A stretch of DNA of 45,171 nt from Chloroflexota bacterium (GTDB taxonomy: Bacteria; Chloroflexota; Anaerolineae; JAAYEA01). The translations under genes and the position numbers were made by a program. The stretch lies in assembly GCA_012689325.1 (NCBI GenBank), contig JAAYEA010000122.1:1-45171 (forward strand). Reading direction: 5' to 3'. Shown here piece by piece: positions 10,938-18,512 of this stretch. Below the pieces are notes generated by a model. It was given only the letters and a program-made list of their open reading frames with translations. It ran no database searches and was not told the DNA's origin. Within the stretch, counting starts at the first letter, position 1; each line of letters starts with the position of its first letter.

Positions 10938-12860
10938 CTACTTCCTGACCAACGGCAAGACGAGGCGGCGGCTCATCGTCACGCGGGCGAACTTTTGGAT
11001 GCGGTGGTTGCCCTTGTCCGCCACATAGACGTTGCCCCCAGCATCGACGGCGATGCCGCTGGGCTCCAGGAACTGCCCGAGACCCGCTCCGCGCGTGCCC
11101 CACATCGCCAGCAGATGGCCGGCGCGGTCGAACTTTTGGATGCGGTGGTTGTTGGTATCGGCCACATAGACCCCGCCCTGGGCGTCCACAGCGACGCCGT
11201 AAGGATAGTTGAACTGCCCCGGCGCGGACCCGCGGCTGCCCCAGGCGCGCAGGTAGCGCCCTTGCAGGTCAAAGACCTGGATGCGGTGGTTGTCGGCATC
11301 GGCGACAAAGACCTCGCCGCCGCCGATGGCCAGCAGGCGCGGCCCGCGGAACTGTCCCGGCGCGTCGCCATAGCTCCCCCAGGCGAAGGCGAAGGCGCCA
11401 TTGGGCTGAAAGACCTGCACGCGATTGTTGCCGGTGTCCGTGACATAGATGCGCCGGTCGGCGCTGACGGCCACGCCGCGCGGGAAGGCAAATGCTCCGG
11501 CGCTGCTGCCGTTATAGCCCCACTTGAGGAGAAAGTCGCCATTGGGCTTGAACGCCTGCACGCGGTGGTTGTAAAAGTCCACCACATAGACGTTCCCCTC
11601 GGCGCAGGCGGCGACACCGATCGGCCAGTAGAAGGAGCCGCCGGGGGAGTAGTAATCGCCGAACTGCCCCCAACTGGACAGGTAAGAGCCGTCGGCGGTG
11701 AAGGCCTGCACGCGGTTATTGCGCGTGTCGGTGACATAGACCGTGCCATTGGGCGCCGCGGTGATGCCGATGGGCTCGCGGAAGCGCCCCACGGCGGTGA
11801 CCTGCCCGCCCCATTGGGCCAGGTAGCGCCAATCCCGATCAAAACGCTGGATGCGGTTGTTGCCGGAATCGGCGACCAAGACATCATAGCTGGCGCTCAC
11901 GGCCACGGCATAGGGCAGCGAGAACTGGCCCGGCCCGTTGCCCTCGCCCCCCCAGGCGCCGAGGTAGAGGCCGCTGCCGGTGTAGCGCTGGATGCGATGG
12001 TTGAGGCTATCAGCCAGATAGAGTGTGTCGCTGCGATCCACGGCCAGCGCCCAGGGATCGCCGAACTGGCCGTCGCCAGGACCCAGGCTCCCCCAGCGCC
12101 CCAGCGGCACACCGTCGCAGGCGAAGCTCTGCACGTCGTCCCGCCCCACGTCCGAGACATAGACGTAGCCGAGCGAGTCGATGGCGATGCCAGCGGGCTG
12201 TAGAAACTGGCCGCTGCCGGAGCCCTGGCTGCCGAAGGAGAGCAGCCACTCCCCCGCCAGAGAGAAGCGCTGCACGCGGTGGTTGCCCATATCGGTGACA
12301 TAGACAGTGGACTGGCGGTCGAAGGCCAGGGCGATGGGCTGGTCGAACTGGCCGGGGCCGCTGCCGTAACTGCCCCACTGGTAGAGGAAGCGTCCGTCGC
12401 GGTCAAAGACCTGGACGCGGTGGTTGCCCCGGTCGGCGACATAGACCAGCCCTTGGGACGAGATGGCGAGGCCCTGGGGCGTATCAAAGCGTCCTGCGGC
12501 CTGACCAAAGCCGCCCCAACTGGCCACAAAGAGGCCGCTGGGGTCGAACTTTTGCATCACGTGGTGGTTCGAGTCGGCCACGTAGACAAAGCCGTTGGCG
12601 TCCACGGCGACGCCGCGCGGCCAGGAGAGCTCGCCGGCCAGCGCCGGCCCGCCCCATTGCATGACATAATCGTAACGCTCTGCGGCGGGCGCGCTGAAAG
12701 CGGGCGCAAGGGCGGAGCCGCCGAGGACCGGGCCGCTCAACTCGGGGGGCAGGGGCGAAGACATCTCACCGGTCGCCGCCGCAGGCGATAGGGCGATCCG
12801 GGCGCAAACCAGCCAGAGGACGAGAGAAAGCCAGGCTCGACGGCCAGAGGTCATGTCCAC
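10938..12860 (-). CDS. secreted NHL-repeat protein with twelve repeats
   Basis: A 640-residue protein with an N-terminal signal segment (RRAWLSLVLWLVCARIAL, then a small-residue region) and twelve NHL repeats of about 47 residues. Each is marked by a VYVADxxNHRIQxF-type strand and a WGxxGxGxGQF-type turn. Twelve repeats fit two six-bladed propellers. NHL propellers bind protein, sugar or nucleic acid ligands, or are enzymes; nothing here fixes which. It is probably exported and has no membrane anchor at the C-terminus. The GTG at 12860 is favoured by GGAG 8 nt upstream; an ATG two codons later (12854) is the alternative. Its promoter at 12934-12962 overlaps that of the divergent GNAT fusion. 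Confidence 0.88.
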   Translation of the reverse strand: MDMTSGRRAWLSLVLWLVCARIALSPAAATGEMSSPLPPELSGPVLGGSALAPAFSAPAAERYDYVMQWGGPALAGELSWPRGVAVDANGFVYVADSNHHVMQKFDPSGLFVASWGGFGQAAGRFDTPQGLAISSQGLVYVADRGNHRVQVFDRDGRFLYQWGSYGSGPGQFDQPIALAFDRQSTVYVTDMGNHRVQRFSLAGEWLLSFGSQGSGSGQFLQPAGIAIDSLGYVYVSDVGRDDVQSFACDGVPLGRWGSLGPGDGQFGDPWALAVDRSDTLYLADSLNHRIQRYTGSGLYLGAWGGEGNGPGQFSLPYAVAVSASYDVLVADSGNNRIQRFDRDWRYLAQWGGQVTAVGRFREPIGITAAPNGTVYVTDTRNNRVQAFTADGSYLSSWGQFGDYYSPGGSFYWPIGVAACAEGNVYVVDFYNHRVQAFKPNGDFLLKWGYNGSSAGAFAFPRGVAVSADRRIYVTDTGNNRVQVFQPNGAFAFAWGSYGDAPGQFRGPRLLAIGGGEVFVADADNHRIQVFDLQGRYLRAWGSRGSAPGQFNYPYGVAVDAQGGVYVADTNNHRIQKFDRAGHLLAMWGTRGAGLGQFLEPSGIAVDAGGNVYVADKGNHRIQKFARVTMSRRLVLPLVRK

Positions 12861-12933: not shown

Positions 12934-12962
12934 ATTATACGCAACTTGACTTGTGATGAAAA
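12934..12962 (-). promoter_or_regulatory. promoter of the NHL gene
   Basis: On the minus strand: TTTTCA (12957-12962), 17 nt, TATAAT (12934-12939). It overlaps the divergent plus-strand promoter, so the two cannot be occupied by polymerase at once. The 328-nt gap 12861-13188 holds these promoters and the leader described separately. Confidence 0.65.
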
Positions 12963-12974
12963 CAACGCTATACT
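12946..12974 (+). promoter_or_regulatory. promoter of the attenuator-like leader and GNAT fusion
   Basis: TTGACT (12946-12951), 17 nt, TATACT (12969-12974). Each box has one mismatch to consensus. Transcription should start near 12981 and give a leader of about 208 nt before the fusion gene. Confidence 0.75.
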
Positions 12975-13008
12975 TGCGGCGTTGGAATCCTGCGAAAGGA
13001 GGCGCGTG

Positions 13009-13047
13009 ATGACCTTGGTGAGCACCTGGAGAGGTAGCTTGTCCTAG
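13009..13047 (+). CDS. 12-codon leader peptide
   Basis: ATG ... TAG encodes MTLVSTWRGSLS. AAAGGAGG (12995-13002) lies 6 nt upstream, the best RBS spacing in the window. It sits about 28 nt after the predicted transcription start and before two terminator hairpins, the usual layout of an attenuation leader peptide. The RBS overlaps GGCGCG (13001-13006), which can pair with CGCGCC (13048-13053) and close a stem around the whole small ORF. It contains one Trp and no run of a single regulatory amino acid, so classic amino-acid attenuation is not obvious. Confidence 0.5.
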   Translation: MTLVSTWRGSLS

Positions 13048-13061
13048 CGCGCCTGGTTCGC

Positions 13062-13077
13062 CTGCCAATCCTGGCGG
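13062..13077 (+). other. candidate antiterminator hairpin
   Basis: CTGCCA pairs with TGGCGG around the loop ATCC (6 bp, one G-U). Its 3' strand uses GCGG, which is also the 5' strand of the first terminator (13074-13079), so the two hairpins exclude each other. That is the geometry of an attenuator switch. Confidence 0.4.
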
Positions 13078-13111
13078 TCGCCGGCGCATCAGCCCGGGGG
13101 ACCGCTTTTTT
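13074..13111 (+). terminator. first intrinsic terminator in the leader of the GNAT fusion
   Basis: GCGGTC (13074-13079) pairs with GACCGC (13100-13105), with GGC/GCC inside, and is followed by six T (13106-13111). It lies upstream of the coding gene, not after one. Confidence 0.7.
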
Positions 13112-13125
13112 GTTGCCGATCTGCT

Positions 13126-13158
13126 AACGCTGCGGCCCCTTGGGCTCGCAGCGTTTTT
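13126..13158 (+). terminator. second intrinsic terminator in the leader of the GNAT fusion
   Basis: AACGCTGCG (13126-13134) pairs with CGCAGCGTT (13147-13155). GCCC/GGGC continues the stem inside, giving about 13 bp, with TTTTT at 13154-13158. It lies 30 nt before the start codon. No promoter is visible between it and the gene, so readthrough or antitermination would be needed. Confidence 0.75.
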
Positions 13159-13188
13159 GCTTTCGTCTTAGGGAAAGGGGACTCATCC

Positions 13189-16100
13189 ATGTCAGAGCAG
13201 TTGATGCTCAGATCGCTGAATATCGAGCAGGATGCCGAGGCGTTGGCGACTATGTTCAATGGCTCGGACGACCAGTGGCCCGGCTCGTTCACCGGAGGCG
13301 TGCCCTTCAACGTGGAGCGCATCCGACGCTGGTACGAGGAAGAGGACGCGCTGGATGTGTTCATCTGGGCCGAGCCGGACGGGACCATCGCCGGGTACTG
13401 CTCGTTGCAGGCCCAGGCCTCGGAGAAGGGCACCGGCTATGTGCACCTGCTGAACGTGCATCCCGCCTACCAGAAGCGCAGCCTGGCGCGCCGCTTCCTG
13501 ACCAACGCCGTCGAGCGTTGCGTCAAGCTGGGCTTTCGCCGCCTCGACCTGCATACCTGGCCGGGCAACCTCAAGGCGGTGCCGCTCTACAAAAAGACCG
13601 GCTTCTTCTGGATGCCCGATACGCAGGTCTATATGCAGAACTATATTCCGTGGCTGCTGCAGGCGCCGTGCGCCCGGCCGTACTTTGACAAGCACGACTG
13701 GTACGCCACGTACAAGCGCAAGCTGGAGCAGCACGAGGATGACGAGCGCTGGCGCGGCATGAAGGTCTTTACCTACCACTGGGAGGAGGGCGGCGACTCC
13801 CTCACCGCCTGGGCCGACCGGGAGGGACGGGCCATCACCGCGCTGGAGACGGACGCCTTTTTCGCCGCCGCCATCCCGGCCCAGATCAAGCCAGCCAAGG
13901 GTGCGCGCACGACCATGCGCTGGGAGCTGCGCAACAAGGGCGAGCGGCCCCTGTCCGTCTCGATCATCGCCCGCGGCACGGAGCATCTCAAGCTCGACTA
14001 TCGGGAGAACCTCATCGTGGCGCCCGGCGAGACCGTGGAGCGATCCGCCGAGGTGGAGGTAGATGCGAAGACGCCGCGGGTGTCACGGCGCAAGCCCGCC
14101 CCCAAGATCGAGACGCTGCTGGTGATCGACGGGCAGACGCTCGAGCTGGGCACGGGCTTGGCTCCCGAGCCCGCGCTGCAGGCGCGGCTGATGCCGCTGC
14201 GCTTCACCCTGGCTCCTGGCGCGCGGCGGTCGGTGAACCTGCAACTGCGGAACGCGCTGGACGTGCCCGTGGAGGCCCAGGTGCAGCTCGTGCCCACGCC
14301 GGGGCTGACCCTGAGCAGCACGGGGCTGGAGATCGCTCTTCCGCCGCACGGGCAGGGCGGGCTGCCTCTGGAGTTGTCCGCCGCGGCGCCGGGCGCGCAC
14401 GCGATCCAGGCGCTGGTGAGCTACCGCGCGGGAGAGCAGCAGGGAGTCGCCGAGCCGCAGCGGCTGCCGGTGTTCGCCCTCTATCCCGGGCAAGCCCTGG
14501 CCTGTGACGAGGAGGACGGCATCCGCGTGGATACCGACTCGGGCAGCTTTTTCATCGGCAAGGAGGGCGGCGGTCTGAGCCTCTATGCGCTGGAGAGCGA
14601 TCGGGAGATGGGCAGCATGGGCGCCGAGTTCGGCCCGCCCTATGACCCCTCCGAGTTCCGCTACGCCCAGGCGAGCCTCTCCTGGCGGCCGGAGGGCAGC
14701 GGGGTGGTGGTGACCAGCGAGCAGGTCTCCCAGCGCTTCCCGGGCCTCGCCCTGGTGCGCGAGCTGCACTTCCTGGGCGGGCCGCTGGTGCGCATGGTGT
14801 ATAGGCCGCTGAACCGCGGCGACAAGGAGCATGCACCGGATCTGATGCAGGGCGCCCCGCGCTTCTGGAACACCCAGCGGACCTATACCATCCCGCTGCG
14901 AGGCGGGCTGCTGCGCGCCGAAAGCACGGGCTACCCCGCCGGCGACGACGAGCTGCCACGCAAGACGGACAAGTTCGCCGAGAAATGGATGTCCTACGAG
15001 ACCAAGTTCGGCACCGTCGGCATCATCTGGGACAAGAGCTTTGAGGAGCTCGAGTTCTGGGGCGCCCCGTATCTGCGCCGCTGCCGCCTGGCCTGCCCGC
15101 CTCACCAGTGGGCCGAGCCGTTCGAGAGCTGGCTTTACTTTGGCTCCGGCGACTGGCGCGACGTGCAGCGGGCCTGGGCGCGGTTAGCTGGCCGCGAGCA
15201 GCCGGCGCTCCTGACCGAACCCGAGCCGATCGTCAAGCTGAGCTGCGAGCAAGGGGTGCCGGCGGCGCATGACGGCGCCCTGCAGCCCACGCTCAAGCTG
15301 GAGAACCGGCGCGAGCGCAAGCTGGCCGGCGAGCTGCGGCTGAGCGCGCCGGAGGGCTGGACCGTGCAGCCGGATCGACTGGCGTTCCAGGAGGTCGACC
15401 GGGGCAAGCCCTTCACCGCGCGGGTGACCTTGGAGGCCAAGCGGCCCGCGCCTGCCGGGCTCAAGCTGCGCGCCATCATCTCGACACCGCTCTGCGACGA
15501 GGAACGAGAGCTCCCCTTCGTGGTGCTGGGGGATGGCGGCAAGGTGGCGGTGACGGAGGGCCAGCAGGACGGGCAGGCGGTCTGGACCCTCGACAACCGC
15601 CGGATGCGCCTGACGGTAGCGCCCCAGTTCGCCGGCACGGTGGCGCGCTGGCTCACGCCAGACGGCGCGAACCACCTGGACAGCGCCTTCCCCACGGTCG
15701 GCGTCAAGAGCTGGATGGCGCCCTTCTACGGCGGCGTCTGTCCGGTGCTCTGGACCGACGAGGATGGCGGCTACCCCGGCAAGCTCTACCTGGAGCCTCT
15801 GGCGGCCAAGGTAGCGACGGTCAAGGACGGCCAGGGGCTCAAGTGGCAGGGCGTGACGCTCTCCGCCGAGCTGCAGCGCGAGCCGCTGCGCGGGCTGCGG
15901 GTGGAGCTCGACTACCTGACCACTGGCGATAGCCCGGTGCTCAAGGCGGTGCTGCGGCTGCGCAACGCCACGGGCGCCGTCCGCAAGGTCCAGGGCGGGT
16001 TCACCACTTTCTGGGCGGTGGACGGGAGCTATGCGGAGAACGTGCTGCACGGCGGCGCATGGACCAGCCGTCGCACCGACTATATGGATAGTTGGGTGGA

Positions 16101-16332
16101 TGTGCTGCACTGGGGCGCGGTGTCCAACCCGGCGACGGGCCGGGCGGCGATCCTGATCTGCCCCGAGCCGGTGGTGCGGCTCACCGAGGAAGGGCGCAGC
16201 TCCACCGCCGTCTCGGCGATGGACGAACTGCTCATCCCGCCGCAGGGCGTCGCTGAGCGGGTGATCTATCTGGCCGTGGCGCCGGATCTGGACGCGGCCA
16301 AGGGCTGGACCGTCCTGAGCGGATACCGCTAA
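13189..16332 (+). CDS. GNAT domain fused to a very large beta-sandwich region
   Basis: A 1047-residue protein. Residues 1-155 form a GNAT acetyltransferase fold: strand VHLLNVHPAY, the acetyl-CoA loop Q95-K-R-S-L-A100, in which the usual glycine is Ser98, and NLKAVPLYKKTGFF (128-140). From about 200 to 430 there are Ig/NEW3-like beta segments (LSVSIIARGTEHLKL, RRSVNLQLRNALDVPVEA). The remainder resembles carbohydrate-enzyme supersandwich folds of the aldose-epimerase kind (for example LTVAPQFAGTVARWLTPDG). No signal peptide or membrane segment is present, so it should be cytoplasmic. Function is unknown; acetylation of a sugar-containing substrate recognised by the beta region is my inference. 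The RBS is AAGGGGA. Expression probably depends on the leader described above. A long hairpin terminator follows. Confidence 0.8.
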   Translation: MSEQLMLRSLNIEQDAEALATMFNGSDDQWPGSFTGGVPFNVERIRRWYEEEDALDVFIWAEPDGTIAGYCSLQAQASEKGTGYVHLLNVHPAYQKRSLARRFLTNAVERCVKLGFRRLDLHTWPGNLKAVPLYKKTGFFWMPDTQVYMQNYIPWLLQAPCARPYFDKHDWYATYKRKLEQHEDDERWRGMKVFTYHWEEGGDSLTAWADREGRAITALETDAFFAAAIPAQIKPAKGARTTMRWELRNKGERPLSVSIIARGTEHLKLDYRENLIVAPGETVERSAEVEVDAKTPRVSRRKPAPKIETLLVIDGQTLELGTGLAPEPALQARLMPLRFTLAPGARRSVNLQLRNALDVPVEAQVQLVPTPGLTLSSTGLEIALPPHGQGGLPLELSAAAPGAHAIQALVSYRAGEQQGVAEPQRLPVFALYPGQALACDEEDGIRVDTDSGSFFIGKEGGGLSLYALESDREMGSMGAEFGPPYDPSEFRYAQASLSWRPEGSGVVVTSEQVSQRFPGLALVRELHFLGGPLVRMVYRPLNRGDKEHAPDLMQGAPRFWNTQRTYTIPLRGGLLRAESTGYPAGDDELPRKTDKFAEKWMSYETKFGTVGIIWDKSFEELEFWGAPYLRRCRLACPPHQWAEPFESWLYFGSGDWRDVQRAWARLAGREQPALLTEPEPIVKLSCEQGVPAAHDGALQPTLKLENRRERKLAGELRLSAPEGWTVQPDRLAFQEVDRGKPFTARVTLEAKRPAPAGLKLRAIISTPLCDEERELPFVVLGDGGKVAVTEGQQDGQAVWTLDNRRMRLTVAPQFAGTVARWLTPDGANHLDSAFPTVGVKSWMAPFYGGVCPVLWTDEDGGYPGKLYLEPLAAKVATVKDGQGLKWQGVTLSAELQREPLRGLRVELDYLTTGDSPVLKAVLRLRNATGAVRKVQGGFTTFWAVDGSYAENVLHGGAWTSRRTDYMDSWVDVLHWGAVSNPATGRAAILICPEPVVRLTEEGRSSTAVSAMDELLIPPQGVAERVIYLAVAPDLDAAKGWTVLSGYR

Positions 16333-16484: not shown

Positions 16485-18479
16485 CTACAGCGGACCCGGA
16501 GAGGACGAGAGGCGGGTCCACCCAAATTGGATGCTGGCCTCAAAGACCCGGTCGTAGTGCTCCACCACCCATTCTTGGACGCCGGTCAGGCCGCGCTCCA
16601 CGACATACTCCTGGCCGGTCCCGTCGTGCCATTCGTCAATGAGGAGCTCCCCGTTCAGGTAGAAGCGCACCCCGTCGTCGGCGCGGACGTGGAAGCGATA
16701 GACGCCGTCGGGCAGCGCCACCGTGCGGCTCCAGCGCGCGGAAAAGCCATCCTCGGGAAGCCCAGGCGCCGGGCTGCTGCGCCCCCAGTCGAAAGCGATG
16801 GCGCCATCGTTGCGGGTGAGCGCCGGCGGGCCCAGCAGATCTTGGTTCGGCCAGTACTCCCCCTTCCAGTCGGGGTAATAGGCGTCGTCCACGCGCTCCC
16901 AGCGAAACCGCATGCGCGCGTTGCCGCCGCCCTCGAAATACTCGACGCGGAGGTCGTGCTGGCCCGTGCCCAAGTCGCGGTCGGCGGAGATCTCGTTGGG
17001 GCTATAGTGGGACCAGGTGTCGAGCACCAGCTCGCCATCTACCCAGACGCGCGCCCCGTCGTCCGCCAGGAGGCGGAAGCGGTAGAGCCCGCCTTCCAGG
17101 TGCAGCCGCCGCGTCCACCGCGCGGAGAACTCGTCGGCGGGCAAGCTGCCGTCAGGGGAGCCCTCGCCCCAGGTGAAATCGATGGCTGGGTCGTTGCGCG
17201 CCAGCGCGGGGCTGCCCGCCAGGTGCCGGTTGGCCCAGTACTCGCCGCGCCAGTCGGGGAAAGACCCTTCGCGCTCCCACCAGAGCCGCGCGCGCGCCGA
17301 GCCGCCGCGCTCGAAATACTCGAGCCGGACGCTGTGGCGGCCGGGGGCCAGCGATAGCAGCGCCGAGACGGTTCGCGAGCTGCTTTCCCGCCATTCGTCG
17401 AGGAGCAGGACGCCATCCACCCACAAGCGCGCGCCGTCATCGACCAAGACATAGAAGCGATAGAGCGCCGCGTCGAACTCGACGATCCGTGACCAGCGGG
17501 CGCTCCAATCATCCCTGGGGAGGCCCGGGGCGGCGGCGCCCTCGCCCCAGTCATAGTCGACCCGCAGGTCGTTGCGGACCAGCGCCGGCGCGCCGTCCAG
17601 GTCACGGTTGGGCCAGTACTCGCCCTTCCAATCGGAGAAACTCTCGATCCGCTCCCACCAGAAGCGCATGACGGCCTCGCCCGCTCGCTCCAAGTACTCG
17701 ATGCGCAGGCGGTGATTCCCGCGGACCAGTGGCAGCGCGTGGCTCACGGTGCGCAGGCTGCCATCCTGCCAACTGTCGATGATCAGCATATCGTCAACCC
17801 AGACGCGAATGCCATCGTCCACGGAGGCGAGGAACTGGTAAGTGCCTCCCTCGAAGTGGAGGGTGCGGGACCAGCGAGCGCTCCAGGCGTCGGCGGGGAA
17901 GCCCGGCGCCGGCGCGCCCCCGCCCCAATCGAAGGTGACCACCGAGTCGTTGCGGACCAGTCGCGGCGCGCCGCGCAGCTCCGAGTTGGCATAATACTCG
18001 CCGCGCCATTCGGTGATGACCGGCGTTGGGCTGTAGGTGGGCGAGGGGCTGGGCGTCCCGGTCCGCGTGGGCTGCGACGTATGGGTCTGGGTCGGCAGGA
18101 CTGTCGCCAGCGGCGACGCTGTGTGAGTGGCCGTGGCGGGCAGCGCGGTGGCCGTCGGAGTGAGTGAAGGCGGCGCGGTTGTCTGGGTGACCGTGGCGGG
18201 CGGGGCGCTCAGCGTCAGGGTGGCGGTTGGTGGAACGGGCGTCGGCGTGCCCGTCGCGGTCGTGGTCGCTGGCGGTAGGGCGGCGGTGGGTGAGGCAGCC
18301 GCGCCGGTGGCCAGCGCCGTCAGCGTCGCGGCGACGCGGGTCTGGACCTCCTCCTCCAGCGCAGGGGTAGGCGTTGGCGTGGTGCAGGCGCGCAGCCATA
18401 GCGCCAACAGCGCCGCGATCAGCAATGGGATGGCGGTCTTCGCGCCCCGGCGCCAGACCTCCTGCCGTTGGCCCATCAT
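16485..18479 (-). CDS. surface protein with four PA14 domains and a Thr/Pro stalk
   Basis: A 664-residue exported protein. A hydrophobic segment near the N-terminus (AIPLLIAALLALWLRAC) acts as a signal or anchor. LRAC resembles a lipobox, but Arg at -2 is unusual, so lipidation is uncertain. A Thr/Pro/Ala stalk of about 120 residues follows, then four tandem PA14 domains of about 125 residues, each opening with a DWKGEYWPN-like strand and carrying a DDGxRxWVDG loop. PA14 domains often bind carbohydrate with Ca2+ through DD-containing loops, so cell-surface glycan binding is likely. The start is uncertain: ATG 18479 and ATG 18476 both follow an AAGGGGG tract, while an in-frame GTG at 18500 has no RBS. 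Confidence 0.85.
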   Translation of the reverse strand: MMGQRQEVWRRGAKTAIPLLIAALLALWLRACTTPTPTPALEEEVQTRVAATLTALATGAAASPTAALPPATTTATGTPTPVPPTATLTLSAPPATVTQTTAPPSLTPTATALPATATHTASPLATVLPTQTHTSQPTRTGTPSPSPTYSPTPVITEWRGEYYANSELRGAPRLVRNDSVVTFDWGGGAPAPGFPADAWSARWSRTLHFEGGTYQFLASVDDGIRVWVDDMLIIDSWQDGSLRTVSHALPLVRGNHRLRIEYLERAGEAVMRFWWERIESFSDWKGEYWPNRDLDGAPALVRNDLRVDYDWGEGAAAPGLPRDDWSARWSRIVEFDAALYRFYVLVDDGARLWVDGVLLLDEWRESSSRTVSALLSLAPGRHSVRLEYFERGGSARARLWWEREGSFPDWRGEYWANRHLAGSPALARNDPAIDFTWGEGSPDGSLPADEFSARWTRRLHLEGGLYRFRLLADDGARVWVDGELVLDTWSHYSPNEISADRDLGTGQHDLRVEYFEGGGNARMRFRWERVDDAYYPDWKGEYWPNQDLLGPPALTRNDGAIAFDWGRSSPAPGLPEDGFSARWSRTVALPDGVYRFHVRADDGVRFYLNGELLIDEWHDGTGQEYVVERGLTGVQEWVVEHYDRVFEASIQFGWTRLSSSPGPL

Positions 18480-18512
18480 GCCCCCTTCTATCTCGCGCAC
18501 CTCTTGCGCCGC

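Follow-up and report, generated by a model that had tools for sequence, protein, structure and literature searches.

A recurrent leader-peptide element, probably an attenuator induced by stalled translation, ahead of resistance-type genes in Chloroflexota

The window, the 45,171-nucleotide stretch of DNA analyzed here, carries a gene at 13189-16332 (plus strand) that lies behind a 12-codon open reading frame (ORF) and two terminators. What would allow transcription to pass these terminators? The gene encodes a fusion of an N-terminal GNAT acetyltransferase domain with ~850 amino acids of Ig-like/NEW3-like segments, and the Ig/NEW3-like matches in this long C-terminal part are weak. An earlier note had proposed that this gene is controlled by translation of the small peptide or by a ligand bound to the leader. 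The leader is likely a ribosome-mediated transcription attenuator that is induced by stalled translation, with antibiotics as the probable cause. The product of the GNAT fusion presumably acts against an inhibitor.

All features of the leader are on the plus strand. A sigma-70-type promoter, TTGACT-17-TATACT, occupies 12946-12974 and has 10 of 12 consensus matches; the near-consensus promoter of the earlier note is thus present, just 5' of where that note began the leader. Promoter-like sites occur in the leader region at 3 per 2.5 kb, compared to 0.1 expected from shuffling. The mini-ORF was also correctly placed. Its Shine-Dalgarno sequence, AGGAGG, is at 12997-13002, and the ORF, MTLVSTWRGSLS followed by a UAG stop, spans 13009-13047, with the stop directly 5' of a segment termed region 2. 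The ORF has one Trp codon and no codon run, as the note had read it. Another promoter-like site, at 12934-12962, is divergent from the leader promoter, lies back to back with it, and overlaps it. This site faces the gene of an NHL-repeat protein (10938-12860). On the other side of the GNAT-fusion gene, 16485-18500 (minus strand) encodes a protein with four PA14 domains and is convergent with it.

The proposed stem around the mini-ORF is found as P1, the anti-antiterminator, in which region 1 (13000-13007), overlapping the Shine-Dalgarno sequence, forms 8 bp with region 2 (13047-13054, GCGCGCCT). Region 2 is both the 3' strand of P1 and the 5' strand of an antiterminator (13049-13053 with 13083-13087; 13055-13057 with 13080-13082). 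The hairpin at 13062-13077, described earlier as excluding the first terminator, overlaps the 5' strand of that terminator and is the inner part of this longer antiterminator. Region 3 (13080-13087) serves either as antiterminator partner or as the upper 5' strand of the first terminator, T1 (13074-13111; 12 bp, then T6). The 5' strand of the second terminator, T2 (13126-13158; 12 bp, then T5), is able to base-pair with the 3' strand of T1 once the latter is freed. Folding places both tandem terminators where the note had put them; a simple terminator scanner detected neither. T1 (13074-13105 plus T6) folds at -21.6 kcal/mol, a value equaled by 6 of 200 shuffles (z -1.8). T2 (13127-13154 plus T5) reaches -24.6 kcal/mol over 13120-13165, equaled by none of 200 (z -5.1). 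In the window, the plain duplex of regions 2 and 3 does not surpass those formed with shuffled versions of the GC-rich partner (76/100), and neither does the duplex between the T1 3' strand and the T2 5' strand surpass shuffles. The whole leader is only mildly stabler than shuffled sequence (z -1.65), so that stability alone is no proof of structure; the proof comes from conservation.

In the window, folding predicts that the structure depends on the position of the ribosome. With no ribosome, P1 has a probability of 0.98 and T1 of 0.82. With a ribosome paused mid-ORF (edge at 13036-13048), the antiterminator rises to 0.77-0.86 and T1 falls to 0.03-0.16. A ribosome at the stop codon, its edge past region 2, returns T1 to 0.68-0.78, and T1 is also predicted to form again when the edge is at ~13024-13030. 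Imposing the antiterminator leaves the T1 3' strand paired with the T2 5' strand, and the probability of T2 falls to 0.33.

The predicted switch is of the 1:2 / 2:3 / 3:4 type. Without translation, region 1 would pair with region 2, T1 would form, and transcription would stop. During smooth translation, the ribosome reaching the stop codon would cover region 2, again giving T1. A ribosome stalled in the middle of the mini-ORF would mask region 1 and leave region 2 free to pair with region 3, in which case T1 could not form. The T1 3' strand, freed in this way, may then bind the T2 5' strand and weaken the second terminator as well, permitting transcription of the gene.

Orthologues of the GNAT fusion were compared for their upstream regions. 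Full-length relatives are found in several Chloroflexota families. The nearest, at 55% protein identity and from a sister genus of the same family (L033/L004), keeps the whole leader: a TTGACA-16-TATACT promoter, a 16-codon ORF, and two tandem terminators followed by the gene. This ORF, MFRATIVGALGGYALS and a stop, ends at the same motif as the window ORF (TTGTCGTAG-TGCGCCTG, the window counterpart being TTGTCCTAG-CGCGCCTG). The same divergent neighbour as in the window is apparently present. A relative with 40% identity (L005) keeps the promoter, ribosome-binding site (RBS), GTAGTGCGCCTG core, and two hairpins; its core is in another reading frame, and its first hairpin (T1) has no T-run. The earlier note had held that orthologues without the small ORF and paired stems would speak against attenuation. 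The leader is indeed absent upstream of the orthologues in families f36 and f50 and of L034, while it is present at the nearest orthologue and at L005. The leader does not, therefore, simply travel with the GNAT-fusion gene.

Two further observations concern these orthologues. One genome (G003, contig C49) has a short copy of the gene's first 229 residues (L037:5946-6629) beside the full-length gene, and the window protein is more similar to this short copy (57%) than to G003's own full copy (40%). A distant orthologue from another class (L078, genome G418, minus strand) has a consensus promoter, an RBS, a 28-codon ORF, and one strong terminator. It is not counted as a family member, as the final covariance model (R2, below) finds nothing in G418, and is perhaps an independent attenuator.

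The leader was then found ahead of other genes. A pattern search of 396 genomes of the class for TAGYGCGCCTG followed by a T-run located the same core and hairpin before ABC-F genes (L136, L137), a Mef-like MFS gene (L138), an ABC exporter gene (L133), and GNAT genes (L134, L135, L139). A search for the exact motif TTGTCNTAGNGCGCCTG with 2 mismatches allowed gave extra matches at chance level only. Because T1 was misaligned when MAFFT was applied to the ten initial leaders together, a covariance model was built from five leaders and then extended. This model (R1), made with the window left out, returned the window leader as the best match in its 5.3-Mb genome (22.8 bits, E=0.007) and, in a phylum sample, new members with E down to 3.5e-8. 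Twenty R1 matches were inspected, and seven (L180-L183, L185-L187) were discarded as chance or coding.

Model R2, composed of 22 leaders including the window's, has matches at E<=0.02 in 145 of 298 genomes of the class. Outside the class, in 23 genomes, it matches only G405 (3 hits) and, weakly, G411 (one hit). This near-absence points to good specificity. A covariance search of the kind that the earlier note suggested recovers the module in Chloroflexota, and the leader belongs to a large family rather than to one gene. Its members keep the promoter, mini-ORF, competing helices, and terminator(s) ahead of different genes, and this comparison lends strong support to the leader-peptide attenuation that had been proposed for the window. 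The window's own genome holds a second member (L189:1900-1977, minus strand; G000, contig C209), whose mini-ORF ends ..HSPWMSAP and which precedes an ABC-F ribosomal-protection-like gene.

A total of 102 leaders from 87 genomes were read. They share the core AGUGCGCC (region 2), whose two possible pairing partners are the mini-ORF RBS (region 1) and the 5' strand of T1 (region 3). An upstream promoter-like site with at least 9 of 12 matches is present in 83 of 99 family leaders, compared to 5 of 99 shuffled ones. The mean pairing energy across the family is -15.5 kcal/mol for regions 2 and 3 (-9.5 shuffled) and -11.2 kcal/mol for regions 1 and 2 (-7.7 shuffled). Swapping partners among leaders weakens both pairings, with 0 of 5000 permutations matching in each case and kinship ignored; the outcome for the 60 variant-core leaders only, kinship likewise ignored, is the same (0/5000 each). 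The regions of the antiterminator predicted for the window thus covary across the family.

A crude three-state calculation gives a family mean P(T1) of 0.93 for the free leader, 0.69 for the stalled state, and 0.98 with the ribosome at the stop codon. Reversing region 2 in the stalled state restores 0.92. P(T1) is below 0.5 with region 1 masked in only 26 of 100 members; in the majority, T1 is still energetically preferred to the antiterminator, so that kinetics, pausing, or factors must play a part. T2 is not recognizable by the rule used in 42 of 99 leaders. Among the 57 with a recognizable T2, complementarity between the T1 3' strand and the T2 5' strand is far above shuffles in 45, partly from the similar sequences of the two terminators.

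The reading frame of the mini-ORF relative to the core differs among leaders: 74 use a main frame, 22 that of the window, and 6 a third. Main-frame peptides have the C-terminus P-[CS]-R-S-A-P-[VI]-x-R, followed by the stop. ORFs in the window's frame terminate with L-[SP] at the UAG that immediately precedes region 2. Two leaders (L237, L255) have the core in the third frame (..TLSQRAHLPVP-stop and ..TLSQCAHLPVV-stop), with CAG in place of UAG. A +1 frameshift joining the two frame classes was considered, leaders of f1 and f50 having an SD-like GGAGG just upstream; it is needless, since the L-S/P-stop frame has its own clear RBS and start codon in f39 leaders. If the ribosome has a standard footprint, region 2 would be covered during termination in the main frame as well as in the window's. 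The conserved RNA core is retained while the reading frame changes.

The main-frame Arg is kept in 61 of 73 leaders through different codons (CGT 26, CGG 16, CGC 14, AGG 2, CGA 2), which suggests selection on the residue. This constancy is what would be expected of a nascent-peptide sensor, in which the P-S/C-R-S-A-P-V-x-R C-terminus is an arrest sequence and arrest or release is sensed. The peptide end also loosely resembles the RAPP/RAGP arrest motifs (PMC10987492), and +X+ motifs number 28 in the variable parts of the mini-ORFs versus 14 in shuffles (0/500). However, the window leader and 21 others end in another frame with the RNA architecture kept, and RSAP is missing from the motif list of the arrest-peptide survey. 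The window ORF ends GSLS and the main frame contains RSAP, neither being RAPP-like, and the targets are not Sec/YidC genes. Such a sensor is unlikely. A broader reading is tentative and probably too strong as a whole: one homologous RNA element copied before unrelated resistance-type genes across the class would form a regulon without a regulator protein, in which most copies encode P-S/C-R-S-A-P-V-x-R to pause the ribosome on region 2 and enforce termination, and a second lineage, the window's included, uses another frame and the stop codon alone.

The nucleotides of region 2 are better conserved than the reading frame, as would also be seen if a ligand or protein bound region 2 or the terminator hairpins to cause antitermination, the mini-ORF being incidental. 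The two pairing partners of region 2, however, account for its conservation. The RBS and stop are consistently placed relative to region 2 in different families, with the stop ending at +15 or at +31 to +37 in most leaders. No Rfam model matched the window or 20 homologous loci, either at the gathering threshold or at E<=5, in agreement with the earlier failure to find a T-box or known aptamer. Binding of this kind deserves little credence. Of the two controls that the note had offered, the evidence favors translation of the peptide and disfavors a ligand.

The genes downstream of 97 leaders indicate what may be sensed. Their proteins, assigned by an uncurated longest-ORF rule, include 57 with ABC_tran, 21 with GNAT, 3 with MFS, and 3 with ABC2 membrane domains. 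Within the ABC_tran group, 21 have an exporter membrane domain and 15 an ABC-F extension. Roughly 85 of the 97 genes are of the ABC-F, ABC-exporter, drug-type ABC, GNAT, or MFS type. The NCBIfam cut-off for ribosomal-protection-like ABC-F is exceeded by three tested ABC-F proteins, one of them being that of L189. Single proteins resemble Mef, TetA(P), and DrrA and stay below the cut-offs of those families.

An amino-acid-specific attenuator, in which the ribosome stalls at the codons of one scarce charged tRNA as it does in trp and his leaders, would have identical 1:2/2:3/3:4 geometry. The window ORF has its Trp codon, and general starvation could also induce the leader by this route. Yet upstream of the core the sequence varies and shows no codon runs: the longest same-residue run is at most 2 in the variable parts of 96 of 101 mini-ORFs, and no residue exceeds 9.6% of these parts overall. 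The targets are transporters and acetyltransferases, and neither the window nor the family pairs an end-product codon run with a biosynthetic target. Amino-acid attenuation is thus very improbable. It is hardly conceivable that the leader yields a small terminated RNA or peptide and that the downstream gene is merely read through. Strong promoters and terminators would suit such an element, but no promoter-like site was found by scanning between T2 and the start codon at 13189, as the earlier note had also observed. Moreover, the leader is kept before very different genes, and covariation links region 2 to region 3, which lies inside T1.

Stalled translation remains the preferred signal. From the sequences, we infer that the leader is transcribed, terminated, and inducible, and that a block of elongation is its likely inducer. 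Since the genes behind this module across the class encode ABC-F ribosome-protection proteins, efflux systems, and acetyltransferases, antibiotics that act on the ribosome are the most plausible cause of the block. By analogy with vmlR and bmrCD (PMC9226507, PMC4191407), such targets suggest that translation inhibitors are sensed. The note had supposed that the signal would be new, but it need not be, since translation inhibitors are a known signal class.

The module looks like an unrecognized, shared sensor of blocked protein synthesis. Drug-resistance leader-peptide attenuators are known mostly from Bacillota, usually with one leader per gene. Here, a single recognizable module precedes genes of the ABC-F, ABC-exporter, drug-type ABC, MFS, and GNAT types, and it occurs in about half of the genomes sampled from the class. 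It provides a sequence handle for inducible resistance-type genes, including uncharacterized ones such as the GNAT fusion, and it makes a prediction about the signals sensed by these bacteria that can be tested directly. No published account of Chloroflexota attenuators or of the peptide was found in a search that covered few subscription journals.

Known systems were compared by description, and no sequence relation to vmlR, bmrB-bmrCD, or mef(E)/mel was noticed. In Bacillus subtilis vmlR (PMC9226507), stalling on a uORF frees the antiterminator of an anti-antiterminator/antiterminator/terminator switch, and the target is an ABC-F gene, as at L136, L137, and L189. The present module differs in belonging to Chloroflexota, in being shared by many gene types, and in the tandem, mutually pairing terminators of many members. 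B. subtilis bmrB-bmrCD (PMC4191407) also has a leader peptide and alternative stem-loops before an ABC multidrug exporter, with the terminator inside the bmrB coding region. The window leader shares with attenuators of the vmlR and bmrCD kind a short translatable ORF with an RBS, an intrinsic terminator between ORF and gene with no later promoter, and, by prediction, a mutually exclusive antiterminator dependent on ribosome position. The mef(E)/mel (msrD) attenuator (PMC4335068, PMC10314930) has a leader peptide before MFS and ABC-F genes, and L138 is Mef-like; the macrolide response has been shown there, whereas antibiotics are only the probable inducer of the present module. E. coli toiL-topAI and the actinobacterial whiB7 uORFs (PMC12121999) sense several classes of translation inhibitors. 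Unlike the present module, toiL acts on an RBS and Rho, and the whiB7 uORFs control a regulator gene, in contrast to the Chloroflexota attenuator, which is placed before the effector genes themselves.

The window's own genome has one more leader of interest (L188:1003-1075, plus strand; G000, contig C78). Directly ahead of carA, it consists of a promoter, an RBS, an Arg-rich 30-codon mini-ORF (MRHTSTTVRDRRTGASVELPRVCCHGALLL), and two terminators, and is possibly an arginine-responsive attenuator distinct from the family.
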